From: Turritopsis dohrnii
Taxonomy: Eukaryota; Cnidaria; Hydrozoa; Anthoathecata; Oceaniidae
Assembly: GCA_027922465.2 (NCBI GenBank)
Contig: BQMF02000279.1
Span: forward strand, 1 to 64,000
Length of the DNA: 64,000 bases
Direction: 5' to 3'
The position numbers were made by a program, and so were the translations under genes. The notes under the pieces were generated by a model. It saw only the letters and a program-made list of their open reading frames with translations. It did not search any database and was not told the DNA's origin. Of the stretch, positions 1-50,267 are shown piece after piece (position 1 is the first letter of the stretch; every line of letters begins with the position of its first letter).

Positions 1-871
1 CACTAGGTAACATGTAAATACCTTGTCCAACAGAATAATCAACTTTGCTTGAAGCGTAATTTAAAGTATCTTGATAACGTTTAATGTCATCTTGAATATC
101 AACTCTGCGGTTAACAATGTCTTCAAAGTTGTTCATAAAAACTCTTTGAGCTGTCAAAGAGCTTGAATTATTACCTAAAATAGAAGAACGAGCTGAGGCT
201 TGCGAACTAAGAACAAGATAAGCATATGCTCTAACACTCTCTGAAATTTTTACAAGACCTGTTTTTGTAAAGCCTTTAGATTTTTCTATAATCCACCGCG
301 TCATGGAGTCGTCTGTGAAATAACTCAGACCTGGCGTTGGATAGTCTCTACGTCTTTTTTGATACGAGCTGTAAAAATATTGCCCTTTGTATTTTTTAGG
401 ATCAGAATCGACACCATATTCACTACAGATTTTTAAAAACTCTTCTTTGTTATAAGGATTATCGTATTGGTTGAAACTATCTTCAAAAGGTAGAGGTGTC
501 TGCAGACGCTTAATGATTCGTCTAATGTGATAATAGACGTGAAAACGATATACAGCTCGTACCATAGGAGTAGAGCGACCTTCTTTCAGATGTTCAGAAC
601 TGACCCCACAAGCACTTGAAGCACACCAAGTGACAAAATTGAATTGGGTTTGCCATAATTTAAATGGTTGCTCCTGCCAAATTTTCATGCGTTGTTCATT
701 TTCATCCATTTTGTAATTAGTAAAAATATTTGGAAAAGTTGCGGGGAAAGAACCATTCTCAGAGACAATAATTGTTTGTTTGTATAAATCTTTAGCATTC
801 AATATCTGGAGGTATTGTCCTCCATTTGGCTTATAAAGCGCATTAGGATTATATTTAAAAATATTCTCCAT
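1..871 (-). CDS. Polinton-associated protein of unknown function, 3' end cut by window
   Basis: An open frame of 290 codons runs from an ATG at 871 to the window edge without a stop. The product begins MENIFKYNPNALYKPNGG and has a Trp/Cys-rich segment (WCASSACGVSSEHL, about residues 82-95) followed by an aromatic/basic stretch (VYRFHVYYHIRR). No signal peptide or membrane segment is evident. I associate this kind of protein with invertebrate Polinton-like elements but cannot assign a function; a virion or minor capsid role is only a guess. It is transcribed divergently from the gene at 911, with a 39-bp AT-rich gap that must hold both promoters. Confidence 0.7.
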   Translation of the reverse strand, partial: MENIFKYNPNALYKPNGGQYLQILNAKDLYKQTIIVSENGSFPATFPNIFTNYKMDENEQRMKIWQEQPFKLWQTQFNFVTWCASSACGVSSEHLKEGRSTPMVRAVYRFHVYYHIRRIIKRLQTPLPFEDSFNQYDNPYNKEEFLKICSEYGVDSDPKKYKGQYFYSSYQKRRRDYPTPGLSYFTDDSMTRWIIEKSKGFTKTGLVKISESVRAYAYLVLSSQASARSSILGNNSSSLTAQRVFMNNFEDIVNRRVDIQDDIKRYQDTLNYASSKVDYSVGQGIYMLPS

Positions 872-910: not shown

Positions 911-1471
911 ATGTATATCACAGTAAATCTCGTAAGGGGTGAGAAGACCATATATCTACCCTACTCCATTCGAAATATAGACGGTTCGAAAGAGATCGCA
1001 TTATTTGAGATATTTGCAGACACCGTCACCTATCAAATCACAACACCGATAACATTGAAAACGTCTGACGATGGGAAAGCTGAAAAGTCGATACCAAAAC
1101 GAACATTCACGAGTAGGGAATTGAATTCCTTTTTAGCAGGTGCCTTTTTAGAAGGTGATATAGAAATTAAATCATTAGCCAAATACCCTCAAATAATCAA
1201 AACAAATACGCTAGCTAAAATAACCAAAATGAATTTACATCTCTCTGAACTCGACAACACTCAAAATTTTGAGGATGGAAAGCTAAGTGATATTTTACTA
1301 ACCGTTCCCATCGCTAAATATAGTGACTTTACACATACTGAGCCTAAAAATCCTCATTATAAAAAACTAAAAAACGGTGTATTCCACTCTCTCACGTTGA
1401 GACTGACAGATCAGCATGGGGGTATACTAAGTGAAGATCTGGGTACAACCGTTGTTTTGCACATTCGCTAA
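911..1471 (+). CDS. putative minor capsid (penton-like) protein
   Basis: The 186-aa product is rich in beta-strand-like alternation and ends with a conserved-looking C-terminus, LTLRLTDQHGGILSEDLGTT followed by VVLHIR. It has no signal peptide, membrane segment or catalytic motif. Its size, predicted all-beta nature and place directly before the major capsid gene fit the single-jelly-roll penton protein of Polintons, but that is inference from context; I cannot show the fold from sequence alone. A perfect palindrome follows its stop codon and lies just before the capsid ATG. Confidence 0.6.
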   Translation: MYITVNLVRGEKTIYLPYSIRNIDGSKEIALFEIFADTVTYQITTPITLKTSDDGKAEKSIPKRTFTSRELNSFLAGAFLEGDIEIKSLAKYPQIIKTNTLAKITKMNLHLSELDNTQNFEDGKLSDILLTVPIAKYSDFTHTEPKNPHYKKLKNGVFHSLTLRLTDQHGGILSEDLGTTVVLHIR

Positions 1472-1490
1472 AACGAGATAAAAAGTAAAA

Positions 1491-1513
1491 ATTAATTATA
1501 TATCATAATTAAT
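1491..1513 (+). terminator. perfect 9-bp palindrome at gene 3' end
   Basis: ATTAATTAT and ATAATTAAT pair perfectly around a 5-nt loop. It lies 20 bp after the stop of the 186-aa gene and directly before the next ATG. It is one of five such palindromes in the element. Confidence 0.5.
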
Positions 1514-1514
1514 A

Positions 1515-2831
1515 ATGGAGTATGGAAAGAGGTTAAATCCAGAACGTTCACTTAGAACTGCCCGCGGTGTAAAAGGCTCTCGTTAAAAAGTAATTGTCAC
1601 ACACAATCCAAGTGAGATTGATCAAAATCAGCTATTATTGGTTAGGTTTCCAAATTTAGGAAGTGATGATGTCATTATTCCAGGAACAGCTAATCTAAGT
1701 TTTGATATTGAACTCGAATCGAAAGCTGACTCAAAAAGAACATTGGTCAGTAACATTGGAAGAGCTATTGTTAAGAAGTTGGCTGTCAAGTTCGAAGGTA
1801 AAGAGATATTGAGCATCGATGACTTTGATCTTTTTGGGTGTTACAGAGATTTATGGTTAACCAAGTTTGAAAAGAGAAACGCGATAAGACAGGGTATCAT
1901 CATCGACGATGGGTGTACAGAGAATTGTATGAAATTGAGGATTGGTGCTTCTGATAAAAAGGACGATGATGCGGAAGACAAAGCCATTGCTGACACCTAT
2001 AAAAACAAGTTTGTCATTCCACTCGACTTTGAAATGCTGGATAGTACTATCCCATATTATCAAGCAGGTTTAGGTAATAGGCTTTGCTACGAGATCACAT
2101 TTAACGACTATAACCGAGTTATTTATTCTAACCCTCCAGATACTGCCGCAGGTCAAAAACGTAACCCAGATGGTAAATACAAAATATCTAACATCTCACT
2201 TGAATATGAGCTTGTGACACAACCCACGTTGGCTAGACAAATCGCTTCTGAATATCAAAACATGGCTTTGCTCTATGATAGGATTTTGCGGCACAGACAA
2301 ATTAGAGTAAACAAGTCAGACACAACGTGGAATTGGTCATTCAACACACCTGCCAAATCTTTGAAGGGTATTTTAGTTCTATTTGAAGAAGAAAAATCCT
2401 ACAAACGAGAAACCTGTAAATTCTACAATCCAAAAATCAAAAAGGTATCTGTTATCGTCGAGGGCAAGCCTAACCAACTTTTTGCTCAAGGGATGCAGCC
2501 GTTTGAACAATACAATGAGATTTGCAAGTATTTTGCTGAAGGAAAACCAAAAGATAATAGCGTCGGCGAAAACCGAAAGCGCTTAGGATTACATGATGTA
2601 AAAGTCGCTGATTACTTGACAAACAAGTATGCTCTATGGTTAGATTTCAGAACAATTGATGAGAATTCCTTGCATGGGACCGGTCGAAGGATTGAAAATG
2701 CAAGTGAAGGCACCACCTTACAGATTGAAAAGACCGCTGAAACTGCAGGAAACTTAAATGCTTATATATATCTAATCATGGATGCTCAATTAAACATACT
2801 AAACGGAGAATTTATGTCTACATTATATTAG
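1515..2831 (+). CDS. major capsid protein (double jelly-roll), interrupted near its N-terminus
   Basis: The long open part (from 1587) encodes about 414 residues similar in character to the hexon-like double-jelly-roll capsid proteins of Polintons and adintoviruses. Recognisable stretches are LVRFPNLGSDDVIIPGT near the start, IGRAIVKKLAVKFEGKEIL, SIDDFDLFGCYRDLW, and the C-terminal barrel segment LFAQGMQPFEQYNEICKYFA. An ATG at 1515 in the same frame opens 23 codons and then meets TAA at 1584-1586. The capsid-like reading continues immediately after that stop, so the break looks like a nonsense mutation rather than a different start. Without the upstream codons the frame has no early ATG. The stop codon overlaps nothing; the ATPase ATG follows 4 bp after the terminal TAG, suggesting coupled expression. 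Confidence 0.85.
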
Positions 2832-2835
2832 TAAA

Positions 2836-3441
2836 ATGGACACACTTTACATGAAAGAACCTCACACGGCATTATTCGTCGGACCAACATCGTGCGGCAA
2901 AACGGATCGTGTTGTAAAATTATTAGAAAATCAATACTTTGATCACTTTGATTTCATCGTGATTATATGTCCCACCTTAAGGTGGAATCAAACTTACAGA
3001 GATCGGAAGTGGTTCTGGAATGACAGCTATGTGATTCTAATTGAGCCGGAAGGTCGCTTGTATGAATGGATTAAGAAAATGGACTTTTTCTGTGCTGGAT
3101 ACAAAACCTTATTTCTGATTGATGATATAATAGCTGATGAAAAATTGGACAAAAAGAGACAGCCTTTGCTCGAGTTGGCAATTAGCGGTAGACATCGAAA
3201 TCATTCGCTATGGTTACTCACACAATCATACACGGCTATACCTAAAAATTTACGACGGCAAGCTAAAATGTTATATGTATGGTACCCAAAAGATAGAAAT
3301 GATCTAACCACCATTCATAAAGAGAACGATGTCATTGATTCGCAAGAAGAATTGAAAGATGTCAAGGAAAAACTGAAAGGAGGGAAACACGCGTGCCTAG
3401 TCATGAGAATGGAACACCCAAGAACGCACGTGATTTGTTAA
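2836..3441 (+). CDS. genome-packaging ATPase, A32/FtsK-HerA type
   Basis: The 201-aa P-loop ATPase would power DNA packaging into the capsid. The Walker A motif GPTSCGKT lies at about residues 16-23, and a hydrophobic strand ending in FLIDD (about residues 95-99) is the Walker B motif. A polar sensor-like segment, WLLTQSYTAIP, follows at about 125-135. The length and motif order match the compact A32-like ATPases of Polintons and virophages, which lack extra domains. The gene starts 4 bp after the capsid stop codon, so capsid and packaging genes form one unit. A 25-bp perfect palindrome follows its stop. Confidence 0.92.
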   Translation: MDTLYMKEPHTALFVGPTSCGKTDRVVKLLENQYFDHFDFIVIICPTLRWNQTYRDRKWFWNDSYVILIEPEGRLYEWIKKMDFFCAGYKTLFLIDDIIADEKLDKKRQPLLELAISGRHRNHSLWLLTQSYTAIPKNLRRQAKMLYVWYPKDRNDLTTIHKENDVIDSQEELKDVKEKLKGGKHACLVMRMEHPRTHVIC

Positions 3442-3455
3442 ACAGGTTGACGTTA

Positions 3456-3480
3456 TTTGTTACAAGACTCTTGTAACAAA
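3456..3480. terminator. perfect 11-bp stem palindrome between convergent genes
   Basis: TTTGTTACAAG and CTTGTAACAAA pair without mismatch around a 3-nt ACT loop. It lies between the ATPase (plus) and the PPP1R15-like gene (minus) and could end both transcripts. Confidence 0.6.
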
Positions 3481-3482
3481 AA

Positions 3483-3535
3483 TATAAGACTCCTATAAGA
3501 CTCCTATAAGACTACTGTAAGACTACTGTAAGAGA
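3483..3535. repeat. 11-bp tandem repeat
   Basis: About four and a half copies of TATAAGACTCC/TGTAAGACTAC run into the 3' end of the minus-strand gene, so the last eleven or so residues of that protein are encoded by the repeat and are probably not conserved. Confidence 0.7.
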
Positions 3536-3749
3536 ATAATTTACGTCTCAATACAGGTTCTAGAATTTTACCAATATGTTTAATCCTCGATTCAAAGCGT
3601 ACTCTATCAACAGCAGCCTCTCTCCAGTTACTTCTACGAGATTCACAAGCAAAGATATAATGGACCTCTACTTCATCATTAAAAGTAACCCTTTTTGTAT
3701 CTTGATGGGAAAATATAATATCATCATCTGAGGATTCATCATCAGACAT
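3504..3749 (-). CDS. PPP1R15/GADD34-like PP1-binding protein
   Basis: The 81-aa product has an acidic N-terminus (DDESSDDD) and then a KRVTF motif at residues 19-23, a textbook RVxF docking site for protein phosphatase 1. The hydrophobic pair (VHYIF), then Arg38 and Trp42, follow with the order and spacing of the RVxF-phi-phi-R-W string known from PPP1R15A/B. Next comes NWREAAVDRVRFESRI (41-56), matching the W..xARDRxRFxxRI pattern of the same family's eIF2-alpha-directing helix. Known viral relatives (ASFV DP71L, herpesvirus ICP34.5) are likewise short and recruit PP1 to reverse eIF2-alpha phosphorylation. Function here is inferred from motifs. The gene converges on the ATPase; its promoter would lie in 3,750-4,011. 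Confidence 0.72.
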   Translation of the reverse strand: MSDDESSDDDIIFSHQDTKRVTFNDEVEVHYIFACESRRSNWREAAVDRVRFESRIKHIGKILEPVLRRKLFSYSSLTVVL

Positions 3750-3836
3750 AATTGTTTAAGTAAACAATGTTTATTTATTTAACAATGTTAGAATATATTA
3801 TTAAACATCATCCTCTTATAATTATTTTGTCTTACA

Positions 3837-3968
3837 AACTTATAAGAAGACAGCAAACTCTTATACAGCAAATTTCAACAAACTTATAAGAAGACAGCAA
3901 ACTCTTATACAACAAATTTCAACAAACTTATAAGAAGACAGCAAACTCTTATACAGCAAATTTCAACA
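3837..3968. repeat. three 44-bp direct repeats upstream of the 214-aa gene
   Basis: Three nearly identical 44-bp units start at 3837, 3881 and 3925, each with AACTTATAAGAAGACAGCAA and ending in AATTTCAACA. They fill the spacer between divergent genes and stop 43 bp before the next ATG. A role in promoter activity or replication is possible but unproven. Confidence 0.8.
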
Positions 3969-4011
3969 AAATTATAAGAGAGTATAAGAAAATTATAACA
4001 AACACAACAAA

Positions 4012-4656
4012 ATGATAGAATATGTCAACTTCGTGTTATTAAGCATACTGCTGGTCTCGCTATTTTACTTTTATTTTGTGTTAAAAAAATACCTCTCTCT
4101 AATAAAAATGGTGGAAACAGCGATCGATAATTTAATCAACCAGAGTTATGATGTTCCGGGTGAATTCCCATCTTCAGATGGTAAAAGACAAAAATTGCTC
4201 GAGTGTGTCTTAACCGGTAATAGCAAGCTATACTTAGAGAAAATGTACACGGAAGAGCAGATTAACAAACTCAAAGATGAAAAGGTAGAAAAACTTTTTA
4301 GTATCTATGAAGCTAACCTATCAGGTCAATGGGGGAAATCCTTGGGGAAATCACTCATACGCATTTATTCGAGGGGGGCTTGTACAATGTTAGGAATAGA
4401 CAATCAAGAAGCGCTGAGCAATGACTTGGAAGCTGACCCCTCCTTAAACTCTGCCCTTCAAAAATTTGCATGTGGCTTATATTATAAATTCGGCTCATAT
4501 TTAGCACCACTCAGTGTTGGACTTATTACCGGGAAGCATTATATCAATGAAAGATATTTAAATAAATCCGATGATAATATAAATACAGTAGATAATAAAA
4601 ATGTCAGAAGAACAGACTCCCATTCAAGTGACAACGAAGAACCCAAAAAAGGTTGA
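4012..4656 (+). CDS. membrane-anchored Polinton protein of unknown function
   Basis: The 214-aa product starts with a single strongly hydrophobic segment at residues 6-25 (FVLLSILLVSLFYFYFVL), likely a membrane anchor. A hydrophilic body follows, containing DGKRQKLLECVLTGNSKLYL and LSGQWGKSLGKSLIRIYSRG, and then a polar tail. I do not recognise a domain with a known function. Its last 56 bp overlap the start of the next gene in another frame, and together with the next three small genes it forms a tight plus-strand cluster of virion-type membrane proteins. Three 44-bp repeats and a TTATAACAAAC tract lie just upstream. Confidence 0.65.
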   Translation: MIEYVNFVLLSILLVSLFYFYFVLKKYLSLIKMVETAIDNLINQSYDVPGEFPSSDGKRQKLLECVLTGNSKLYLEKMYTEEQINKLKDEKVEKLFSIYEANLSGQWGKSLGKSLIRIYSRGACTMLGIDNQEALSNDLEADPSLNSALQKFACGLYYKFGSYLAPLSVGLITGKHYINERYLNKSDDNINTVDNKNVRRTDSHSSDNEEPKKG

Positions 4657-5664: not shown

Positions 5665-6951
5665 TTACCGTCTAGTGACAAGGTACGTATAGATCAACCC
5701 CCCAACCCCTACAATCAGAGCCCATAAATTTTGACTTAACCAACCTACAACTTCTTTTGCTCTGTTCAATATCCATGATACGATAGACCCAATTATTCCT
5801 GGTAAAGCCTCTGCCGCTCTAGATGCTAATCTACCTAGAAGTGATGCTAACGCTTTGAGTTTATTTTTTATCCATTCCTTTGCATCGTCCTTTTTATCAC
5901 CACCTTTGTCAGGATTTTGTGAAGAGCTTCCAGCTGCTGATGGTAACAAAGCTTCCACAAGGACACCGATAGCCATACCAAACGCTGTCAGAATGCTAAC
6001 GATTGTTATACCTTGTTCACGGAATAGTGTTCGTATCCTTTCACCTAATGAGGTATCTTTGTCAAGGACTTTAGCAATGGTTTCTTTGATGCTCGTAACT
6101 TGACTGTTTAATTTACCTTTGAGAATATTAATGTTCTCTTTCCTAGCTTTCAACTCTTCACGTAATCCACCCATTCTCTTTTCAACCTCTTTTCGTTGTT
6201 CATCTGTGTATGTTGCATCATTTTCCATTTCTTCCAACTTGTTTTTCTCCTTATCGATATGCTGTTCTATTCGAACCTTTTTTGCAACCTCTTCCTGAAG
6301 ACCTCCTCTTATGTTTCTCAGCGCCTTATCCAATCCTAACAGCTCGCGCACAGGATATTCAAATAGATCGCCGGTCTGAGTCATTTCATGATCGACAGAT
6401 TGTTGTCTTATTAATGAAATTAAATCTTCCGTACTATTTGCAATGTTCCCCGTAATTTCCTCAAGCTCTACATCACTCGATTTTGTGATTTTAGATGATG
6501 AAGGGAGTTCTTCTTGTATTTTATTTAACATAACTGCTTGTCGTGCTGTTATTTTGCCAATAGGTATATCAAACCCTAATTTACGTAACCCCTCCTTACC
6601 CAATATATCAGCTATAGTACCGGTAGCCCTTAGTCTTCCATTGTTTGTCAATGGTTTGCTACTGTCTTTGTAGTATAATTTACCTTCTCTGATTTCAAAT
6701 AGATCGGTATGTTTGGAATTAGGTTTTTCCTGATTGAGACTTTCAGATAATCTATCATACAGCCCTTCAACTAGTTCTTTCAAAACTCTAGTATGCAGAC
6801 TGTGACCTCCAAATGATGTTTCTCGTTCACCTGATGTATGTATCTGTACATGAGTTCGGTCACCGGTTGGTATGAGAGGAAACGTTTCATCGGTTGTTTC
6901 ATCTGTCGTCATCCTATGTTCTCCAAAGGGGTCAATGTCAATGTCTGCCAT
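5665..6951 (-). CDS. large Polinton-associated coiled-coil/membrane protein
   Basis: The 428-aa product starts with an acidic, Thr-rich region (TTDETTDETFPLIPTGDR). Its middle (about residues 215-290) is strongly charged with coiled-coil character. The C-terminal third has several hydrophobic helices, including GITIVSILTAFGMAIGVLVE (about 315-334) and a final LWALIVGVGGLIYTYL. I associate proteins with this final architecture with cnidarian Polinton-like elements, but no function is known to me; a virion membrane or attachment role is conceivable. It is divergent from the 149-aa gene across a 56-bp AT-rich gap. Confidence 0.65.
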   Translation of the reverse strand: MADIDIDPFGEHRMTTDETTDETFPLIPTGDRTHVQIHTSGERETSFGGHSLHTRVLKELVEGLYDRLSESLNQEKPNSKHTDLFEIREGKLYYKDSSKPLTNNGRLRATGTIADILGKEGLRKLGFDIPIGKITARQAVMLNKIQEELPSSSKITKSSDVELEEITGNIANSTEDLISLIRQQSVDHEMTQTGDLFEYPVRELLGLDKALRNIRGGLQEEVAKKVRIEQHIDKEKNKLEEMENDATYTDEQRKEVEKRMGGLREELKARKENINILKGKLNSQVTSIKETIAKVLDKDTSLGERIRTLFREQGITIVSILTAFGMAIGVLVEALLPSAAGSSSQNPDKGGDKKDDAKEWIKNKLKALASLLGRLASRAAEALPGIIGSIVSWILNRAKEVVGWLSQNLWALIVGVGGLIYTYLVTRR

Positions 6952-7007
6952 TTTATTTATTTAGAGGATAATTTATTATTATATTATGTTATAACAACCC
7001 TCTAAAT

Positions 7008-7457
7008 ATGAATGTTAAAATTTATCCAAAACTACCCACTGCTCCTGAGGATTTGAATGAGCAGGAAAAGTTTAACGCAAGCGTAATAAATTCAGAATTT
7101 GAAGAGTTGATAAAACTTAAGAACAAGTTTAGCGTAAAGCTCAAGAGATACAACAAAGCGATAGAACGATCGATGCTACTAAATGCTAGCTCAAGCGCTA
7201 TAGCCATTGGCTCTGGCATCGGTTCAATTGCAACATGGGCTACTATTATCGGAATACCTATTTCTGCAGGATTAGGTGGTGTAGCCCTAGCCGGCTCTAT
7301 CTGTACCGGACTTACCACAGCTGTCATCAAAAGATATCAAAAGGAAGTAGAAAAATTATATGATATTGTTACATCCTCAATCGCTGTGTTCGAAACTAAC
7401 ATAAGTCAGGCGCTGACCGATGGGAGGATCAATTACAAAGAATTCCAGGTTTTGTAG
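7008..7457 (+). CDS. membrane-active-like protein with premature stop
   Basis: The 149-aa product has a charged helix (about residues 28-55) followed by a long Gly/Ala-rich hydrophobic hairpin (about 58-103: SSAIAIGSGIGSIATW ... GLGGVALAGSICTG), then another amphipathic helix. After the TAG at 7455-7457 the same frame stays open for 45 more codons with similar composition, up to TAG at 7593-7595. That suggests the first stop is a nonsense mutation and the intact protein was about 195 residues. The Gly-rich hydrophobic hairpin resembles pore-forming or virion membrane proteins, but this is only physical similarity. Confidence 0.6.
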   Translation: MNVKIYPKLPTAPEDLNEQEKFNASVINSEFEELIKLKNKFSVKLKRYNKAIERSMLLNASSSAIAIGSGIGSIATWATIIGIPISAGLGGVALAGSICTGLTTAVIKRYQKEVEKLYDIVTSSIAVFETNISQALTDGRINYKEFQVL

Positions 7458-7673: not shown

Positions 7674-8012
7674 ATGGAATTCCCAACAGTTGCAACATTT
7701 GAACAAAACATGGAACAAATTACTCCAATCACAAAGTGGAGAGAGCTAACTGAAAACGTGATTTATCATGTTAAATCTGTGGTTGAGATAGACACACCTG
7801 CATCTGAATTTGGTTCTGGAAAAGCTATGTATGCAGAGGTCCAAGACAGAACAGGAAATTTATATAAGACATGGTTGCCTGCAAGACTTTGCGTTGAGTT
7901 GAAGGATTATGGTTGGAATTCTAGAGAAGCCTTTGTCAGACCGAAGGGGCTCAAACAATCTGAAAAGAATCATGAAAGGCAATTCTTTGATTATGACATT
8001 ATGTGGCACTAA
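7674..8012 (+). CDS. ssDNA-binding-like protein (OB-fold candidate)
   Basis: The 112-aa product begins with ITKWRELTENVIYHVKSV and continues through MYAEVQDRTGNLYKTWLPAR and AFVRPKGLKQSEKN. The pattern (start strand, then a turn with DRTG, then WLP) is like small OB-fold or replication-associated proteins found beside PolB in Polinton-like and adintovirus-like elements. Assignment to ssDNA binding is inference. A TATATATAG tract lies 3 bp upstream of the ATG. It converges on the integrase gene with a palindrome between the two stops. Confidence 0.55.
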   Translation: MEFPTVATFEQNMEQITPITKWRELTENVIYHVKSVVEIDTPASEFGSGKAMYAEVQDRTGNLYKTWLPARLCVELKDYGWNSREAFVRPKGLKQSEKNHERQFFDYDIMWH

Positions 8013-8073: not shown

Positions 8074-9057
8074 TCACCAACCTTGCACATAATCAGGAGG
8101 TAGCTCTGTATCCTCAGGTATCAACATCAGCTCTTCTTTCACAAAAGCTCGTTCAGGTCCATCTTGAAGGTAATACATTACACGGTTACCAGGTTGCTCT
8201 ATTACCTCACTCAATCTATATGTCTTCTTTGACCATATGATATCTGTTGCTCTTTTTCGATGGTCATCGTGCTCTTCACCCGGTTGCAATAGATATCTAT
8301 ACAAACCATCTTGAGGTAATTTTTCTTCAGGTGGATAGCTCTCTTGTTTAGCGAGAGTTACCTCTTTCAATTTGATGGCATCTTTCGGTTTCATACCGAT
8401 CATCTGAGTCTTTGTATCATTCAATCTATTCACAAGTTTATACAAATATTTGACCCATGTAGATGATACCTTTTCCGAATCATTCAGTTCTTGAGCATCT
8501 TGTATTTTGAATAAATTTTCGGCAAGTATCTTGTTCAATGCCTCAACAAAAGCTGTATGGGTATGTTTATATTTTGTAGTTGCTCTTTTAATTTCAACAT
8601 TATTCTTCTCCAACAATTTTGATACATCCGCTTTGAATTCTGAACCGTTATCGCATTGAAATACTTTTGGATAAGTTAAGGGTCCAACCTTGTAGATGTC
8701 TTCAATCATAGCGGCAACCTCTTTCGCTCTCTTAGTATTCAAAGGTCGAGCCACCTTATAGCGTGAAGCAACATCGATACCAGACAAAATGTACTTGTAT
8801 TTATTACCATATAGCATATCACTAGGCATATACAATATATCAAATTGATGAATCTCATTCGGTTTAGTTACCTCATAATGTGGACGTTCAACATGTTTCA
8901 GTGCTGGTAAATGTACTTGCCACAAAGCTTGCTTTGATAGCCACTTCTTAATTTCCTTCGGTTTGAAGTTGAATCCGCTTAGATTGCGAACAGCCTTTTG
9001 TCCTTTCCATAAGTTTTGAGGTTGATAATAAATCTCTTGAAGTTTAGTGTCTGACAT
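8074..9057 (-). CDS. int: retroviral-type (rve) integrase of Polinton
   Basis: The 327-aa protein would cut and join element ends to host DNA. The catalytic D,D35E triad is intact: Asp73 in HQFDILYMPSD, Asp136 in FQCDNGSEF and Glu172 in AFVEALNK, with exactly 35 residues between the last two. The N-terminal 60 residues do not show a clear HHCC zinc finger. The C-terminal 60 residues (TYRLSEVIEQPGNRVMYYL...) resemble the chromo/SH3-like tail typical of Polinton integrases. Length is normal for the family and no frameshift is seen. It is divergent from the SAP-domain gene at 9159. Confidence 0.93.
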   Translation of the reverse strand: MSDTKLQEIYYQPQNLWKGQKAVRNLSGFNFKPKEIKKWLSKQALWQVHLPALKHVERPHYEVTKPNEIHQFDILYMPSDMLYGNKYKYILSGIDVASRYKVARPLNTKRAKEVAAMIEDIYKVGPLTYPKVFQCDNGSEFKADVSKLLEKNNVEIKRATTKYKHTHTAFVEALNKILAENLFKIQDAQELNDSEKVSSTWVKYLYKLVNRLNDTKTQMIGMKPKDAIKLKEVTLAKQESYPPEEKLPQDGLYRYLLQPGEEHDDHRKRATDIIWSKKTYRLSEVIEQPGNRVMYYLQDGPERAFVKEELMLIPEDTELPPDYVQGW

Positions 9058-9602: not shown

Positions 9603-12600
9603 ATGACTTCACGAAATACTGTTGTTGAATTAAAAGCTATCGCGAGAGAGCGTGGCATACCTGGCTACTCAAAACTCAGAAAAGCTGAGTTGATCGAATT
9701 ATTAGCAAACCCACCTGTTCCACCACCAAGACCTGTTCCATTTATTCCTACCCAACAAGATATGGATTTGTTTGAGCAACAAGAAATGGGAAAATCTCGA
9801 CCTGTTGTGAAAAGCAAGTTGAATGAATGGAGAGATTGGTTAATAAATCATGTACCTAAAGCTATTAAGGAGAAAGTGAGTGGCGCTTTCAGAGAGATGA
9901 AGAAGAAGATTCTCAATCTCTACAAGAGGAAGAATAATGAAAAAGATGAAAAATTGGTGGAACCAGAAGCGTTTGTCCCCATTGAAATGGCGTTTGAGGG
10001 TTCTTACAAAAGGTTCAAGATAAACTCAGATGGAAAAAAGGACGTTGATTCGTTTCTCGATAAGGTTCGATCCATTTTAAGTGATCTGATTATGAGAGAA
10101 CTCAAAAATAAAAAATCAATAAAAATTCAAGCAACTGTGTGGATCAAATGGAGAAAGGAAGATCTATCCAATCCTGAAGCAACAATCTACGTCGATAAGG
10201 CGTTCAATAGCAATATGGAAACAATTCATAGTGAAAGCGATATATCTGATGTTATTAATAAGATGTTCAATAAGATAATCGAACAGGTTGAAAACCCTGC
10301 GTTACCTCAATCCGGCTTTGTTATCGATAAAATTTTAAATATTGATGTGGATTTTCACAAGCTAAAATTAACGAGAGGCAGCTCTTACTTACCGCTACCT
10401 AAGAATTTCAGTGGTAAGTATTCGATAATCAATCCTAAAAACAAAGATGATGAAGAGTGTTTCAAATGGGCTGTTATTGCAGCTTTGAACCATGATAAGA
10501 TTAAGAAAAATCCACAAAGGATAATGAATCTCAAGAAACACATTGATAAATATAATTGGGAGGGTTTATCGTTTCCAATGGCGCTAAATAAAATAGATTT
10601 GTTTGAGAGGAGGAACCCTGATATCGCTGTGCATGTTTTGACAAAAGATGTGACAGAAGGTATCTATATGTGTCGCAAGTCGAAGCATCTTGATCGCAAA
10701 GAAACGGTTGTTTTGTTTTTATTATGTGAAGAGGAAAAGAGACATTATATAGCTGTAAAGAACTTGAGTGGTGTCTTGAGTAAGGTCAACTCGAATCATG
10801 AACATAAGGAGCATTATTGTTTGAATTGTCTCAATGGATTCTTAAGTGAGAAAACACGAGATGAACACTTTGAATATTGTAAAAATAATGATGTCGCTAA
10901 GATTGAGATGCCAAATGAGGGTAGCACCGTTAAGTTTCATGACGGTCAGTACCAGCTCAAAGCTCCTTTCATAATGTATGCTGATTTCGAAGCTTTGTCA
11001 AAAGAGGTTTGTAAAGAACCGCGTAGCGTTATTGGATCATCCACTAAAAAGGTTGGTATACATATCCCCACAGGCTTCTGTTGTTATAGCAAATTTGCTC
11101 ATGGTGAAGTTTCAGACCCTCTAACGCTTTATCGTGGTGAAGACTGTGTTTTACGTTTTGTAGATCATGCGGTAGGTGAAGTGAAAAGGTTATACAATAT
11201 GTTTCCTAAACAGAGAATGCGAGACCTCACATATGAAGAGGAACAGGGATTTGTAGATTCTGATAAATGTCACATATGTATGAAAGAATTTGAAAAAGAT
11301 AATATTAAGGTTAGGGATCACTGTCATTTTACTGGTAAATTTCGTGGAGCTGCACATCAGTCTTGTAATCTTCGTTACAAAGTGCCTAAATACATCCCGA
11401 TCGTCTTTCACAATCTGAGCGGATATGATGCTCATCTATTTATCAAAGAACTAGCCAAACAGTATGGAGATGAAGGGATTGCCGTCATCGCTGAAAACAA
11501 AGAAAAATATATCTCTTTCTCATTGGATGTTAAGGTTGGTGAATACATTGATAAAAATGGGGTGACTAGGGTTCAAAAGATACAGTTGAGATTCATCGAT
11601 AGCGTGCGTTTCATGGCTAGTAGTCTGGATAACTTGGTAAACAATCTATCTGACGATCAGTGTAAAAACCTTCGAAAATTCTTCAAGGGTGATGAGCAAT
11701 TTAAACTATTGAGAAGAAAAGGAGTTTATCCTTATGAATACATTGATTCTTTTGATAAGTTTAACGAAACTAAGCTCCCACCGAAAGATGCTTTTTACAG
11801 TAAGTTGAACATGAAAGATATCAGTGATGCTGATTATACGCATGCACAGAATGTGTGGAAACACATGAAAAATAAAAATATGGGTGCGTATCATGATCTC
11901 TACCTCAAGACAGACGTTCTATTGCTTGCTGATGTTTTTGAGACTTTTAGGGAAACATGTATAACAAACTATAAACTGGATCCTGCACATTTTTACACTG
12001 CTCCAGGATTAGCTTGGCAAGCATGTTTGAAAAAGACAGAGGTTGAGCTGGATCTGTTGACAGATATGGATATGTTTCTCTTCGTAGAGCAAGGTATTAG
12101 AGGAGGTCTCTGTCAGGCTGTTCATAGACATGCTAAAGCTAATAACAAGTATATGGATGCTAAATATAAGAAGACTGAAGAAAGTAGCTATCTCCAATAT
12201 CTTGATGCAAATAATCTATATGGATGGGCTATGATTCAGAAGCTACCGACAGGGAATTTCAAGTGGGTAGATGCTAATAAATTTACTGCCGAATTCATTT
12301 CAAAGTTGGCTGAGAAAGACGGTAAATATGGTTATCTTCTTGAAGTTGATGTGAACTATCCTCAGGAGCTTCATGATTCACATAACGATCTTCCGTTTAT
12401 GCCTGAGCGAAAGAAGATCAATGGTGTAGAAAAGCTAACTCCATGTCTTTCAGACAAGAAGAACTATATTATTCATATCCGTGCACTTGATCAAGCGCTG
12501 AAGCATGGTCTTGTTCTTGAGAAGGTTCATAGAGTACTGAGATTTAGACAAAGCGCATGGTTGAAGCCGTACATCGATTTCAACACCAATTTGCGTACTA

Positions 12601-13415
12601 AATCAAAGAATGACTTTGAAAAGGACTTTTTCAAGCTCATGAACAATTCAGTCTTTGGTAAAACTATGGAGAATCAACGTAAGCATAAAGACATACGCTT
12701 GGCTACCAAGAAAGAACAATATGAGAAGCTGGTGATGAAACCTAACTTCAAGGGTAGTATCTGTTTCAGTGAACATTTGATGGCTGCTGAAATGCAAAAG
12801 ATCAAACTCGTGTTGAACAAGCCGATCTATCTGGGACCTACAGTTCTTGATTTGTCAAAGACGATTATGTACGAGTTTCACTATGATTACATGAAACCAA
12901 AATATGGTGACAATCTAAAGCTCTGCTATATGGATACAGACAGCTTTGTCTATCACATCAAAACCGACGACTTCTACAAAGATATTGCCAATGATGTAGC
13001 TTTGAGATTCGACACTTCAGCGTACGATGAGAAAGATAACAGACCTTTACCTATAGGTTTGAATAAGAAAGTCATCGGTCTAATGAAAGATGAGTTGGGT
13101 GGTAAGATAATGACAGAGTTTGTTGCTCTAAGAGCGAAGACATATGCATATAAACAGCTGGATGGAAAAGAAGACAAGAAGTGTAAGGGAGTCAAGAAGT
13201 GTGTAGTAAAGAAGACCATGGGGTTTGATGATTACAAGAGATGTTTGTTCGATGGTAAGAATGTTTACAGAGAACAGATGACCTTTCAATCGATTAAGCA
13301 TGATGTTCACACTATAAAAACAAAGAAACTCGCTCTCAATGCGGATGATGACAAAAGAATTATTGCAAAAGATGGTATTGCTACATATGCTAGAGGACAT
13401 TATAGGTATGTATAA
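9603..13415 (+). CDS. polB: protein-primed family B DNA polymerase of Polinton
   Basis: The 1,270-aa protein is intact. An N-terminal SAP-like module (VVELKAIARERGIPGYSKLR, about residues 6-25) is followed by a long element-specific region with ECFKWAVIAAL. Exonuclease motifs are MYADFEAL (about 458-465), IVFHNLSGYDAHLF (about 600-613) and YHDLYLKTDVLLLADVF (about 762-778). Between the first two lies a CxxC...HCH...CN zinc/HNH (endonuclease VII-like) insert at about 557-592. Polymerase motifs are YLDANNLYG (A, about 866), MNNSVFGKTMEN (B, about 1014) and YMDTDSF (C, about 1109). All expected catalytic Asp residues are present. It would replicate the element from terminal-protein primers. No hairpin follows its stop. 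Confidence 0.95.
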   Translation: MTSRNTVVELKAIARERGIPGYSKLRKAELIELLANPPVPPPRPVPFIPTQQDMDLFEQQEMGKSRPVVKSKLNEWRDWLINHVPKAIKEKVSGAFREMKKKILNLYKRKNNEKDEKLVEPEAFVPIEMAFEGSYKRFKINSDGKKDVDSFLDKVRSILSDLIMRELKNKKSIKIQATVWIKWRKEDLSNPEATIYVDKAFNSNMETIHSESDISDVINKMFNKIIEQVENPALPQSGFVIDKILNIDVDFHKLKLTRGSSYLPLPKNFSGKYSIINPKNKDDEECFKWAVIAALNHDKIKKNPQRIMNLKKHIDKYNWEGLSFPMALNKIDLFERRNPDIAVHVLTKDVTEGIYMCRKSKHLDRKETVVLFLLCEEEKRHYIAVKNLSGVLSKVNSNHEHKEHYCLNCLNGFLSEKTRDEHFEYCKNNDVAKIEMPNEGSTVKFHDGQYQLKAPFIMYADFEALSKEVCKEPRSVIGSSTKKVGIHIPTGFCCYSKFAHGEVSDPLTLYRGEDCVLRFVDHAVGEVKRLYNMFPKQRMRDLTYEEEQGFVDSDKCHICMKEFEKDNIKVRDHCHFTGKFRGAAHQSCNLRYKVPKYIPIVFHNLSGYDAHLFIKELAKQYGDEGIAVIAENKEKYISFSLDVKVGEYIDKNGVTRVQKIQLRFIDSVRFMASSLDNLVNNLSDDQCKNLRKFFKGDEQFKLLRRKGVYPYEYIDSFDKFNETKLPPKDAFYSKLNMKDISDADYTHAQNVWKHMKNKNMGAYHDLYLKTDVLLLADVFETFRETCITNYKLDPAHFYTAPGLAWQACLKKTEVELDLLTDMDMFLFVEQGIRGGLCQAVHRHAKANNKYMDAKYKKTEESSYLQYLDANNLYGWAMIQKLPTGNFKWVDANKFTAEFISKLAEKDGKYGYLLEVDVNYPQELHDSHNDLPFMPERKKINGVEKLTPCLSDKKNYIIHIRALDQALKHGLVLEKVHRVLRFRQSAWLKPYIDFNTNLRTKSKNDFEKDFFKLMNNSVFGKTMENQRKHKDIRLATKKEQYEKLVMKPNFKGSICFSEHLMAAEMQKIKLVLNKPIYLGPTVLDLSKTIMYEFHYDYMKPKYGDNLKLCYMDTDSFVYHIKTDDFYKDIANDVALRFDTSAYDEKDNRPLPIGLNKKVIGLMKDELGGKIMTEFVALRAKTYAYKQLDGKEDKKCKGVKKCVVKKTMGFDDYKRCLFDGKNVYREQMTFQSIKHDVHTIKTKKLALNADDDKRIIAKDGIATYARGHYRYV

Positions 13416-13532: not shown

Positions 13533-14144
13533 ATGACAAGCATGTTATATACTATAGCTCTCGATAATGTTGTAAAATCGATAGATTCGAAAACTAAAAT
13601 CGATTCGTTAGATATACCTCGACAAATCAAAAGACATTGTAAACAATTAATAGAATTTAACGACGCGATAGATTCCAATAAGATAATAGAGATAGACGAA
13701 GAAATATTAAGTAACCTTTATACGATACATAAAAACGATGAAGATAAAAGATATTGCGAAATTATTTTAATTCAAGCATGTGGCAACGGGTATACGAGTA
13801 TATTAACAGAAATGAAAAAGAATACTAAGGATTTTGACAATGCGACGTGTGTAGACGTAGCAAGTTTTAACGGACACATCAACGTTTTAGAATGGTTGAA
13901 AAGTAACGAATTTACCGATTTCAGTAGAGGTGTATATGGAGCAAGTTATAACGGGCACATCAACGTTTTAGAATGGTTGAAAAACAATGGAGTTAATGAT
14001 TTTAGTAAAGGAGTAGAATTAGCATGTTTTAACGGTCGCATCGATGTTTTAGAATGGTTGAAAAACAATGGAGTTAATGATTTTAGTAAAGCAGTAGAAT
14101 TTATATGTAAAGCTGGGATTATTATTAGCTCATTTATGTTATAA
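13533..14144 (+). CDS. ankyrin-repeat protein
   Basis: The 203-aa product has a unique N-terminal half of about 85 residues and then at least three ankyrin-type repeats of about 33 residues, each with NGHINVLEWLK or NGRIDVLEWLK. Two adjacent repeat segments are almost identical at DNA level, so the array grew by recent duplication. The last repeat breaks off into ICKAGIIISSFML before the stop, suggesting truncation or a frameshift. The spelling resembles ankyrin repeats of giant DNA viruses. It lies beside PolB at the right end of the element; host-interaction is a common role for such proteins but is inferred. Confidence 0.7.
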   Translation: MTSMLYTIALDNVVKSIDSKTKIDSLDIPRQIKRHCKQLIEFNDAIDSNKIIEIDEEILSNLYTIHKNDEDKRYCEIILIQACGNGYTSILTEMKKNTKDFDNATCVDVASFNGHINVLEWLKSNEFTDFSRGVYGASYNGHINVLEWLKNNGVNDFSKGVELACFNGRIDVLEWLKNNGVNDFSKAVEFICKAGIIISSFML

Positions 14145-15889: not shown

Positions 15890-16882
15890 TCAAACAAAAG
15901 ATTTGAAGACCTTCTTCCGTCTTCTACGTATAAAGTAGATATACAGGCCGAGAACGGCTAATATAACCAGAGAGTAGAGGAAAACACACATACTCCAATC
16001 GATGCGAGATAATCCTATAGAAGCAAAAGACGGGGGAGAGGCAGGTTTCGAATAAAAGAGGTAATTAAATTTCGGTCTTACTGCCGTCTCGTCGTCTACA
16101 TCGTCGACGACGCCCAATGTCGGAGTTTTAAGACGAATGTTATCTGGCCCATAATGCTCCTTGAGAAATTCCAAAACAACTTTTTTATTCCACTTTGTTT
16201 CGGGAACATCATAGCCTGGATTCGTAATTATCGTGTTATCAGAGCTAGTCGGTTTGCGGCATTCTTCGCACAGGCTATCTGAAGGGAACTGGATTTTCGG
16301 GAATAACGGGTCTGAGCTGAGGGCGGTTTTAAGCCTGGCGTTGACTTTATTATGACTGCGCCATAACCAGAAAACCGATTGATCGTTTGAGCGAACTTCC
16401 TGATCAATATTCTGCGACATTTCCATGAAATGATCTCGACAGTAGCGACAACCAAAAAAATGATTGACAAATTGCCGAATTCTTTTTAGAACTTGTAAGC
16501 CGGATAGTGGCGGTGTAGGTTTGGTGGCGCACGTGACTGTGATTGTGTGGAAGAGCTGCCACAAACTGCAAGGAAAACCTCTATATTTTGGAGAACTGCC
16601 TTCACAAGATACCCACTGGATTTTACCTGACTGTGGATATTTTTTCATCTAAACAGAAACACAGATAAGAAAACTCAGCCTTGATTATGTGCTTCAGTTA
16701 TAAGAGGATAAGTAAAAATCTTCAATCGCATTCTTACCTTGTCACTGTTTATAAACTCAAGATAATCTTTAGTTTTTATGGAAGATCCTCCTTGGTCCTT
16801 CAGCCAATCATTTACTTTAACCAAATATTCCATGACATCATCTTTAGCAGGGAAACACTATAAACAAATAAGCAATGTAAAC

Positions 16883-19900: not shown

Positions 19901-21420
19901 TTGGAGGTTCTGAAGTATTTGGCACTCTCCTGAGTGACAGAAACCCAATCAAGGGCCTGTGCTCTCCTAAATATATAATCATCTACCCAATTTGCTTTGT
20001 ATGGCATGGGTAGACCTGGTATAGTTATGGTACATTGATTTGCATGGTGAAACACCACCAAGGGGAGAATTGAATCCTGACCTCTCGCACGAAATACAAG
20101 AGTGATAGCCACTATGCTACGGCGGCAACTGAAACATTACCTGGTTCAGCTGGGAATTGACAAAGAAGATCATTTTCACTCATAATTTGTAATTTTTTTA
20201 TTGAGTTTGACACAGACATTTTTAAATAAAAATGAATTTCCAGTTCTTAGTTCTCCTAAGAACTGGAACTGCCAATAACATGCCAAAGACAAATGTTCAT
20301 TTTTTTAACACTATGCATCTTCATGTAAATTTACATAAAGAAAAAAAACGGTGACATTAAAACAGTGGTTTCTCATTAAAAACGGTCACAAGATGTTTTG
20401 TGCAAGATTAATGTGAAATCATTTCATTATACATCATGCCTGAATTTTAAGGGAAAATATCTCGCAAACAAATTACATTTTTTTTGGTGTGCAATTATGG
20501 TGATGGGATTACAACGAATTTAAGTCCCATTTATTTTATAGTGAAGATGAATCTCCACTAGATGATTTTTATGACAGTCATTATAAATTTTCATGTTGAA
20601 ACTTGATAGAAGTGAACTGAAGTTAGCTGGTCTCCACAGTAAAAATACTTTTTGCAATCATTAAATTTCAAAGCAAAGATATCATCAAATTCAGAATACA
20701 AATTGCTATTATTTACATTTCGTGTTGTGCTCAGTGTTAGCAGAAAAACAAGAAACAACCTAGTGGAGTAGTACTAAAAATTATCACATAAATATATAAT
20801 TTTCACATAAATCATCCAGTAACTGTTGTTAAACTATGGTAATAATCTTAAGTGGAGATCATACATAAATAATATTTTCCTGACATTTCTTACCCTTGAA
20901 ACACACCCATTATACAATCATTGATCTTGATCTTCTCTGTTATTAATAGATAATAATGTTAAAAAATAGACATACAGTTAACATTTATGTAATGCTGCAA
21001 CCCTGAAGGTATATATCAATCTCATAATATGATTTAGATATTATGCTTTAATCATGTAAACCTATTTGAAAGTCAACTATCTGCATGAATAAAATACTAT
21101 CAAAATATTAACTCATATATTATTAAAAATTAAGAATACTTACTTTTTAATTCCCAGGCGAGGCGCAGCCACTTCGGAGCAAACATTTGACAATGCCCAC
21201 ACCAACTTGAATAAAATTCTACAATCCAAATTTTTCTATTTCCTGTCAATTGTTCTATTATCGTTTCATTTGTAAATTGCACCATAGGGTCACTCTCTTT
21301 ATATAAACTCTGAGTCTCACTTGATATTGGTATAGTTAAAATTGATAACAGAAAAACTAAAAGAAACATGACAGTATTCATGTATTTATTGCGATGAAGA
21401 TGTTCCTGTTTCTCCGCCAT
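15890..21420 (-). CDS. QSOX: quiescin sulfhydryl oxidase (QSOX), complete 11-exon gene
   Basis: The enzyme oxidises thiols to disulfides in secretory proteins, reducing O2 to H2O2. Exons 5' to 3': 21144-21420, 19390-19490, 19160-19247, 18883-18979, 18706-18802, 18509-18568, 17602-17690, 17288-17416, 16998-17130, 16738-16857, 15890-16648. All introns are GT-AG and the phases join into 1,950 nt, 649 aa. A signal peptide (about residues 16-33) precedes the thioredoxin domain with WCGHC (C74, C77). The Erv/ALR domain in the last exon has RGFPCSLW, FFGCRYCRDHF (C464, C467), the FAD-site WLWRSHNKVN and a third CxxC, LCEEC (524-527). A C-terminal membrane helix at about 617-637 precedes a basic tail. 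DYLALVFEEASSYTGK matches the non-catalytic thioredoxin fold. Confidence 0.95.
16883..16969. repeat. (ACA)n microsatellite in QSOX intron
   Basis: About 28 near-perfect ACA units lie between the 16998-17130 and 16738-16857 exons. Confidence 0.95.
17168..17276. repeat. family A MITE in QSOX intron
   Basis: Ends GGGCAAAATCGTCAAAAAAT and its inverted partner (CAGTGATTTTTCAGCAAA) flank a short core with TTTCTATAGAAAT. Related copies lie near 25,430, 35,445, 39,186, 55,780 and 58,880. Confidence 0.7.
17778..18124. repeat. family D MITE in QSOX intron
   Basis: Terminal inverted repeats of about 24 bp, ACACGGGTTTTTTTTATAAG at the left and its near-complement ending AAACCTGTGT at the right, bound a 347-bp non-coding element. 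GTTGCTTAA-type motifs recur inside. A second copy lies at 53,192-54,015. Confidence 0.75.
19846..20130 (-). repeat. tRNA-derived SINE (type 2) in QSOX intron 1
   Basis: Read on the minus strand from 20,130, it starts with a pol III A-box-like GTAGCATAGTGGCTATCAC followed by a B-box-like GTCAGGATTCAATTCTCC. The remainder is tRNA-unrelated body. It does not fold as an intact tRNA. Confidence 0.7.
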
Positions 21421-22197
21421 ATTTGTTTTTGTTATTATTCAAAAAATTTTTCGACATTCTGCAGAATAGATCTCCATTTGCTTTTTGTGATGGTTTGTTC
21501 CGCAACTTATATAATTTATCATGCCGAAATCTTATAATAATGATAGACAGGTACTACCTGCTGCCAAAACCCTATGTTGAAAAAGAAGAATATTTTGTAG
21601 GTATCACTCACCAACCACAAGGCCGATCTTCAGGGGACAAAAAGTTTAATCTCTAAACACTTCTTGAGGGTGATATAAAAAAGCGCATCGAGTAAAATTA
21701 TTTAAGGAAAGCTCTCTCTGCAATCTCATTGGTTCACACCGGCTAAGAAGTGATGCCACCAGTATAACAAAAAGTCAGGAGACTGTAGGTTCGAGGTTCG
21801 ATGTCAATTTTTTTGTCTAAACCATCCTACCGTGATGTAATCATATGATGGACACGAATATTGTTGTATGATATATTTAAATACCGTATTTCCTCTAACA
21901 AACGTCGCACTTATAGCCGAAAATTTGTAATAAACGCCGCAATAAACAGGCGGTACGAAGTAACAAAAAGAAACTGTATGTACATGACCAAAGCACTTTC
22001 AATATAACAAAACAACCCATCTTGTCTGAGTGAAGAAGAACTAGAAAGATGCATTTCTATCAACAGCTTCGTGATTCCGACTGCTGCTCTATCACTTTTT
22101 GCATTCTTAATCTCGAAAAACTGTTTTTGTTTATAGTGAGGGTGTTGGTCTTTAGATACATTTTTGACCTGTGTCATAAAATTTCCTCTCAGTTGCA

Positions 22198-22436
22198 TTC
22201 TTTTTAGAAGAGTCTGCGCGTATCAAGAGGTTTCTTTTTAGAAGAGTTTGTGCGTATCAAAAGGTATCTTTTTAGAAGAGTTTGTGCGTATCAAGAGGCA
22301 TCTTTTTAGAAGAGTTTGTGCGTATCAAGAGATATCTTTTTAGAAGAGTTTGTGCGTATCAAGAGGTTTCATTTTAGAAGAGTTTGTGCGTATCAAGAGG
22401 TTTCTTTTTAGAAGAGTTCGTGCGTATCAAGAGCTA
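22198..22436. repeat. 34-bp minisatellite, seven units
   Basis: Units read TTTTTAGAAGAGTTTGTGCG then TATCAAGAGGTTTC with few changes between copies. Confidence 0.9.
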
Positions 22437-22511
22437 ACAAAAACCTGTATTACAACCATTGACATGCATTTCAATTCTTCTTTGAAAATCTCATAAAGCC
22501 TTAAATTTAAT

Positions 22512-29653: not shown

Positions 29654-29750
29654 GAAAAGAATATGAATTTCCCGGGTTACTTAGTATTTGCCAATCTGTG
29701 GGGAAACATACATGAAAAGTCATCAGTATATTCCATCGAAGTTTTCCGAA

Positions 29751-49999: not shown

Positions 50000-50267
50000 C
50001 TTAAAAAGACAAAATTTAAAATATCAGGCCATGAAATGAAGAGCAAATATGTCATCTTGCACGCTTTGAGTGTGTGACACACACATTTTGGTAATCACAC
50101 ACTCTAAAAATTCCTTATCTGAAATAAAAATTTTGTGAAATATTTAAGTAGTTTACATGGCTTACTGTTTGTTCCAGCAATTGCTTTAGTGCACTTTATT
50201 GCAATACAGAGTATAAAATTTCAAAAGGTTCTCTGGTATGCCAATCAAAACTGCTGATTGTAAATCT

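Follow-up and report, generated by a model that had tools for sequence, protein, structure and literature searches.

Our analysis implies that a short gene carried by a Polinton-type element of the hydrozoan Turritopsis dohrnii is, judged by its sequence, a genuine PPP1R15-core gene of this Polinton family, and that its product is quite probably a minimal viral eIF2-alpha phosphatase targeting subunit, i.e. a known trick in a new carrier. The gene, hereafter R15, encodes 81 aa and lies on the minus strand at 3504..3749 of the window, by which we mean the whole analysed stretch of 64,000 nucleotides. The window is the left end of contig C279 in a 436-Mb genome; therefore the element is cut and the window starts inside it. 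The observations behind this reading are the homology to PPP1R15, the contact residues at exact spacing, the carriage by the element and the retention in nearly all sampled copies. From the homology we infer the mechanism, in which the R15 product would dock on the host PP1 catalytic subunit via RVxF-phi-phi-R-W, would recruit G-actin through W42/F52/R55/I56 and would aim PP1 at phospho-Ser51 of eIF2-alpha. The translation arrest imposed by infected or stressed cells would be undone and the host cells would keep making viral proteins; the binding of PP1, actin and eIF2, the phosphatase effect and the benefit to the virus are in this sense predicted. Host interactions of Polintons are hardly known, and a Polinton R15 in at least 276 places of one animal genome would extend the evasion of translational arrest to a new carrier group.

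The R15 frame runs from ATG to stop; the preliminary description gave its position and length but not the strand, and the motifs named there are present: K19-R-V-T-F23, V29-H30-Y31-I32-F33, R38, W42 and N41-WREAAVDRVRFESR-I56. The membership in the PPP1R15 family claimed there, for which a profile comparison had been proposed, is supported by PF10488 (PP1c_bdg/PPP1R15), which matches residues 13-59 with 30.3 bits against a curated Pfam cut-off of 26.1 (E 4.4e-7). The best solved relatives by sequence in a phmmer search of the PDB are human PPP1R15B (4v0x, E 6.1e-6; 4v0u, E 9.4e-6) and ASFV DP71L (9nb9, E 2.1e-5); PPP1R15A matches more weakly (7nzm, E 0.6). A custom HMM built from 10 PPP1R15B-like proteins (P0122-P0131) selected R15 alone among the 1127 window frames of at least 30 aa (27.9 bits, E 8.7e-8), and in the shuffle control the best score of this HMM across 60 first-order Markov windows was 13.4 bits. 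The shortness of the protein could invite the explanation that the frame or its resemblance arose by chance or convergence; this explanation was ruled out by the Pfam and PDB E-values, the Markov-window control and the conservation over 41 copies, and its probability is practically negligible.

The contacts described for PPP1R15A/B comprise the RVxF motif, the phi-phi pair V564-H565, R578/R658, W582/W662, F592/F672, R595 and I596/I676 (PMC10743859; this paper and the others given by PMC number are cited from excerpts). Ungapped spacing puts them on V21/F23, V29-H30, R38, W42, F52, R55 and I56 of R15, within residues 19-56 (3582..3695, minus strand) that begin with KRVTF. The matching spacing speaks for the earlier proposal that the RVxF-phi-phi-R-W residues and the helix block following them are PPP1R15A/B-like. 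The conservation of the RVxF-to-RF block in related copies was likewise seen: at 41 distinct places that were read (the window, 22 profile-chosen and 18 ATPase-chosen copies), residues 19-56 are uninterrupted in 41/41. Among the PP1-docking residues of RVxF and phi-phi, V21, F23 and H30 are found in 41/41 copies and V29 in 40/41, with Ile in the remaining one; of the residues for the PP1 pocket and actin activation, the Trp (W42) is present in 41/41 and the Arg (R38) in 40/41, one copy having His. The predicted G-actin contact set Phe-x-x-Arg-Ile (F52, R55, I56) is kept at each position in 41/41 copies. The complete set of invariant residues comprises V21, T22, F23, V27, H30, Y31, I32, W42, E44, A45 and A46 as well as D48, R49, V50, R51, F52, S54, R55 and I56, and the changes crowd at residues 26, 28, 33 and 40, with fewer at 43. 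Four copies, whose odd lengths were part of the reason for their selection, carry changes outside the core, three of them at the C-terminus (L022-L024) and one at the N-terminus (L025). The R15 copies would thereby offer a natural variant library of a minimal eIF2-alpha phosphatase core, in which never-changing residues can be told from freely changing ones.

Apart from the core, R15 has an acidic N-terminus. DP71L is reported to require V16, F18 and an LSAVL tail (PMC5346070), onto which LEPVL (63-67) of R15 was aligned; the final R15 residues run into tandem repeats. No RARA motif is present in the 81 aa, and neither is an FLKAWVY-type eIF2-gamma-binding Phe/Trp helix, because R15 has a single Trp. 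According to PMC10998612, this helix lies outside the shared core and does not define it, the core of about 70 residues being the part common to mammalian, viral and invertebrate forms. The same source reports in vitro dephosphorylation of eIF2-alpha by this core in combination with PP1 and G-actin; on the eIF2 trimer the core is about 10 times slower than an extended form. In PMC7615683 an R15A C-terminal fragment binds PP1 with no rise in activity on eIF2-alpha, and the substrate helix H1 is given as conserved in Drosophila R15, ICP34 and DP71L; as excerpted, the two papers disagree on the sufficiency of the core. DP71L with its 70-72 aa acts in cells (PMC5346070, PMC10807198). One would argue that R15 recruits PP1 to another substrate (e.g. 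innate-signalling kinases) or merely sequesters it, as RVxF docking alone is common among PP1 regulators (PMC10743859) and gamma34.5 is also reported to aim PP1 at IKK-beta (PMC10807198). The missing FLKAWVY-type helix and the R15A fragment point the same way. However, the match spans the actin/eIF2-alpha part (residues 42-56), which is unneeded by a plain PP1 docker, and we consider such a role unlikely compared with the targeting of eIF2-alpha.

The carrier had been described as a Polinton-type element, and its genes bear this out; we make the assignment because of the gene set given here and the gene content usual for the group. This set includes an rve integrase of 327 aa (8074..9057, minus strand; PF00665 E 1.1e-10), an A32-type packaging ATPase of 201 aa that R15 adjoins (2836..3441, plus; PF04665 E 9e-8), a polymerase-like frame of 1270 aa (9603..13415, plus) and a putative major capsid protein frame (1515..2831, plus; 439 aa in the relative P0002). 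The polymerase frame has 40% identity to a frame of the viral contig L001 and no Pfam or PDB polymerase match, and from its motifs we take it to be probably a family-B DNA polymerase; the other frames of L001 look to us like capsid, ATPase and integrase. The neighbour of R15, in head-to-head orientation, is an element gene at 4012..4656 (plus), and further element genes are found at 2..871 (minus; truncated at the start of the contig, with 385 aa in copy L010) and at 911..1471 (plus; 186 aa), the latter presumably a minor capsid protein. An ankyrin-repeat frame lies at 13533..14144 (plus; PF12796 E 1e-7, three 81-bp direct repeats). No adenain-type cysteine protease family was found at E<=1 among the part of the frames that was scanned. 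Protein identity of the ATPase between copies is mostly 92-97%, unlike that of 911-1471 and 7674-8012, which occur as strongly diverged alleles whose best segments have about 63-98% and 65-100% identity.

The capsid assignment comes from relatives and from structure comparison. Of 7999 proteins scored in the protein collection, 6069 are relatives, at E<=0.001, of the part of the frame after an in-frame stop, and they are up to 92% identical. The structure models are poor (pLDDT 33.8 for the first, 44.7 for the second), and the second, itself of low confidence, gave no Foldseek match at E<=0.001; its 14 best PDB rows are all capsid entries of Sputnik, mavirus, adenovirus, faustovirus or PBCV-1, the fold of which we take to be the double-jelly-roll. 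In the viral library the first ten Foldseek rows combine hexons and capsid proteins with a polymerase and with proteins that are unnamed or uncharacterised. The single in-frame stop of the window frame lies near codon 24, and therefore the virus is not intact in the window copy. Of 18 other copies none has a stop at that position and 3 have one elsewhere, and some are also split by frameshifts.

Outside the element, Erv1/Alr and thioredoxin exons lie beside it at 15890-16648 and 21130-21420 (minus strand) and resemble a QSOX-like host gene. The window also contains a minisatellite with a 34-bp period at 22165-22470 (seven overlapping copies listed), a long frame of repeats of about 12 residues of the QPRGGDSFRTND type at 29685-31055, and many short frames at about 33000-50000 (minus), which to our eye resemble extracellular-protein exons of the TSP1 and von Willebrand A types. 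Elsewhere in the genome, contig C880 shows a mitochondrial COX1 match at 5673-7012 that is split over two frames. The frame changes at profile position 284, and TGA codons occur in frame (4+5), as is compatible with many animals; the shift may be an assembly error or frameshifting.

At least 276 distinct places of the genome have R15 with no stop in the match. This number merges all rows of the PF10488 and window-protein searches with 16 rows of the human-core search, and it is biased to intact copies because only the best candidates were scored. In the PF10488 search the best 150 of 413 candidates were scored, and all 150 exceeded the cut-off, their matches being free of stops; the human-core (412 candidates) and window-protein (447) searches, scored for the best 150 each, also gave no stops in the match. 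When copies chosen by profile were retrieved together with about 10 kb of sequence, 20/20 had R15 in the same slot, by which a host gene or an isolated pseudogene was rejected. A sample independent of R15 was drawn from the ATPase list, which gives 150 of 941 candidates in order of their closeness to the window; from the top down, every row with an odd number was taken until there were 20. R15 is intact in its slot in 18 of these 20, displaced in one and absent from one. In the displaced case (contig C76) other frames were inserted after the ATPase and R15 is listed 3.4 kb further on. In copy L032, frames at 1232-3301 lie between the ATPase and R15; we presume that they resemble a DNA-transposon protein. 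In the absent case (L039, contig C256) R15 is missing and the two flanking repeat arrays are fused. Therefore the element can exist without R15. Over the whole list, R15 was found within 5 kb downstream of the ATPase in at least 106 of the 150 ATPase places, and of the remaining 44, four were read, R15 being present in three (L033, L037, L049) and absent only from L039.

The repeat arrays in question are short tandem repeats of about 11 bp, located at the 3' end of R15 and beyond it (3480..3530, seen in the sequence and the copy alignment) and 44-bp tandem repeats on its 5' side (3834..3979, from the repeat listing), whose length varies between copies. Across 39 copies the corresponding spacers measure 36-432 and 27-500 bp, and it could be that the arrays drive loss or exchange of the cassette. 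Contig C746 contains three R15 copies at about 25.9, 33.4 and 40.9 kb with a spacing of 7502 bp, as if part of the element were tandemly repeated. Several R15 copies are found close to the low-numbered end of their contig, at distances from a few hundred bases up to a few kb (e.g. C173:224, C657:50, C772:684), which suggests that the assembly breaks at recent copies.

With the window R15 protein as query, no relative was found among 5.8 billion proteins, viral contigs or phage records, which is weak evidence of absence because protein searches of the word-based kind easily miss proteins that are short and diverged. A search with a human PPP1R15B alignment gave 11 proteins at E<=1 among 23 candidates, namely the human PDB chain and ten PPP1R15B-like proteins. 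Since the same collection holds the close capsid relatives mentioned above, R15 may be confined to this lineage. Searching the viral contigs with the polymerase gave one related element, L001, and with the ATPase, integrase and capsid none. Thus the survey of related elements proposed in the preliminary description found same-slot copies in the own genome and no R15 in other Polintons or viruses, L001 being negative. A host PPP1R15 gene was not seen among the best 150 of 412 candidates scored in the human-core genome search, all of which reach at most 31.1 bits and have open frames of R15 size (70-110 aa); the host gene could be hidden by an intron or by divergence. No publication linking a polinton with PPP1R15 or GADD34 was found in the literature searched.

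The evolutionary pattern is the most interesting part of the R15 case. Purifying selection across copies (a dN/dS below one), for which a test had been proposed earlier, was not supported gene-wide, and the ratio of about 1.2 falls where the preliminary description placed evidence against its own reading; the PPP1R15 core and the Polinton carriage, which it also claimed, stand, and R15 is kept in the same slot in many copies. In the 33 copies with five readable genes the R15 core has pS 0.028, pN 0.033 and a pairwise ratio of 1.21, with a bootstrap range, drawn on a subset of pairs, of 0.38-3.41; the neighbours in the same copies give 0.13 (ATPase), 0.11 (p5185), 0.29 (p4012) and 0.48 (p4601). 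Minimum-spanning-tree ratios are 1.10 for all columns, 1.98 for core 11-70 and 1.65 for residues 19-56, and this tree count takes variants shuffled between mosaic copies more than once. Counting variants gives 1.21 for singletons and 1.71 for shared ones, and the shared-variant ratios elsewhere are 0.25 (capsid part), 0.22 (ATPase), 0.14 (p5185) and 0.18 (2-871 gene). Some other small element genes are also near one (p4955 0.99 shared, p7674 1.23 for singletons, p4601 0.70 and shared 0.80), and R15 is the extreme, not the sole, case of a high ratio among the element genes.

The number of synonymous variants is also unusual. The R15 core has 5, fewer than any of 87 equally long, overlapping windows taken from the neighbours, and the 0.136 synonymous variants per codon in R15 are the lowest among 12 genes counted (others 0.213-0.403). 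In 200 random pairs, codons 11-70 are 97.2% identical between copies; the final 180 bp of the ATPase reach 94.6%, and the two non-coding flanks 90.9% and 93.3%; over its whole length, R15 DNA with a mean distance of 0.044 is no more conserved than its neighbours (0.031-0.047). Residues identical to PPP1R15B vary in 2/18 cases versus 14/27 for the others (P 0.005 and 0.003, with E26 left out post hoc); with E26 included P is 0.018 (Fisher) and 0.13 (permutation), and for the nine literature contacts alone it is 0.30 and 0.20, i.e. not significant. We do not regard the ratio of about 1.2 as fatal, because it comes with so few synonymous variants and so wide a bootstrap range, and because change tends to avoid the PPP1R15B-shared residues. 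The copies are mosaics, the distance correlation being 0.43 between R15 and ATPase and 0.12 between R15 and p5185, and these correlations tend to drop with gene distance.

Synonymous variants that are few beside amino-acid variants that are many would be compatible either with a recent sweep and subsequent diversification or with relaxed selection. Relaxed selection is what would be expected if R15 were a hitchhiker that was gained and amplified with the element and is now under little or no selection; the contrast of its ratio with 0.11-0.48 in the four neighbours and the 26 amino-acid versus 5 synonymous shared variants speak in this direction. It would account for the ratio, but not for the low synonymous count or the intact motif. 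In addition, R15 is intact in place in most ATPase-chosen copies, its frame stays while the flanking spacers vary in length, and the PPP1R15B-shared residues vary less than others (the P of 0.005 leaving residue 26 out post hoc), so that we regard a hitchhiking R15 as improbable. A single R15 cassette that swept recently and diversified afterwards accounts for both the low synonymous and the high amino-acid variation. As a tentative possibility, Polintons would fight the integrated stress response, and the R15 cassette would have swept recently through the mosaic copies and then diversified at 26, 28, 33, 40 and 43 beside invariant PP1/actin contacts, because the R15-PP1-actin-eIF2 complex would be the target of a factor from the host or from a rival virus. 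If this is true, antiviral defence based on eIF2-alpha would be the driver, in this animal lineage, of an arms race with DNA viruses that integrate.

It could also be that R15 serves the integrated element or the host (stress tolerance of carrier cells) and not infection, as the virus in the window copy is not intact and hundreds of copies are resident in the genome. The purifying selection on the capsid part, the ATPase, p5185 and the 2-871 gene is what a replicating virus would be expected to show and makes this very improbable, with the limit that some small genes lack the purifying signal (p4955 0.99, p4601 0.80). Against a viral eIF2-alpha phosphatase targeting subunit, which remains our preferred reading, we count the dN/dS of about 1.2, the ATPase-chosen copy without R15, the searches that found no R15 relative from another virus, the free variation of residue 26 (Glu both in human PPP1R15B and in the window), the whole-length R15 DNA that is no more conserved than its neighbours, the single Trp with no FLKAWVY-type helix, and the literature on the R15A fragment, the H1 helix and the slow core.

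The element resembles Polintons/Mavericks and adintoviruses in its rve integrase, A32-type ATPase, capsid-like gene and presumed family-B polymerase, and no PPP1R15-like gene was found for this group in the literature searched at listing level. A Hydra polinton and a Stylophora coral adintovirus are named in PMC11071308, the excerpted text of which is without the word phosphatase. Among cellular proteins, the C-terminal core of human PPP1R15B (CReP) shares 45 ungapped residues with R15, 19 of them identical, and the listed contacts; the human protein has 713 aa (PMC10743859) with eIF2-gamma-binding and membrane regions, which R15 is without. In most of the proteins P0122-P0131 the similarity reaches only a few residues upstream of VTF, which may mark an exon start, whereas R15 is one frame. 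The viral PPP1R15/GADD34 mimics described so far in the cited excerpts come from vertebrate viruses, namely ASFV DP71L, HSV-1 gamma34.5 and the PP1 recruiter TGEV protein 7 (PMC10807198). Herpes simplex gamma34.5 (ICP34.5) is like R15 a viral PP1 recruiter of PPP1R15 type (PMC10807198), with a herpesvirus as carrier and the likeness taken from its description alone. The short form of DP71L (70-72 aa) is similar to R15 in its size, its RVxF, its W-x-x-AAVDR-x-RF-x-x-RI block and, by alignment, its Leu-x-x-Val-Leu tail (PMC5346070, PMC10807198). It differs in its carrier, which is an asfarvirus and not a Polinton, in being one residue shorter between phi-phi and Arg, in the acidic N-terminus, which belongs to R15, and in the H1 substrate helix that PMC7615683 attributes to DP71L and that is not claimed here for R15. 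A viral PPP1R15 mimic is already known as a kind; it is the carrier that is unexpected and the copy number that is remarkable.
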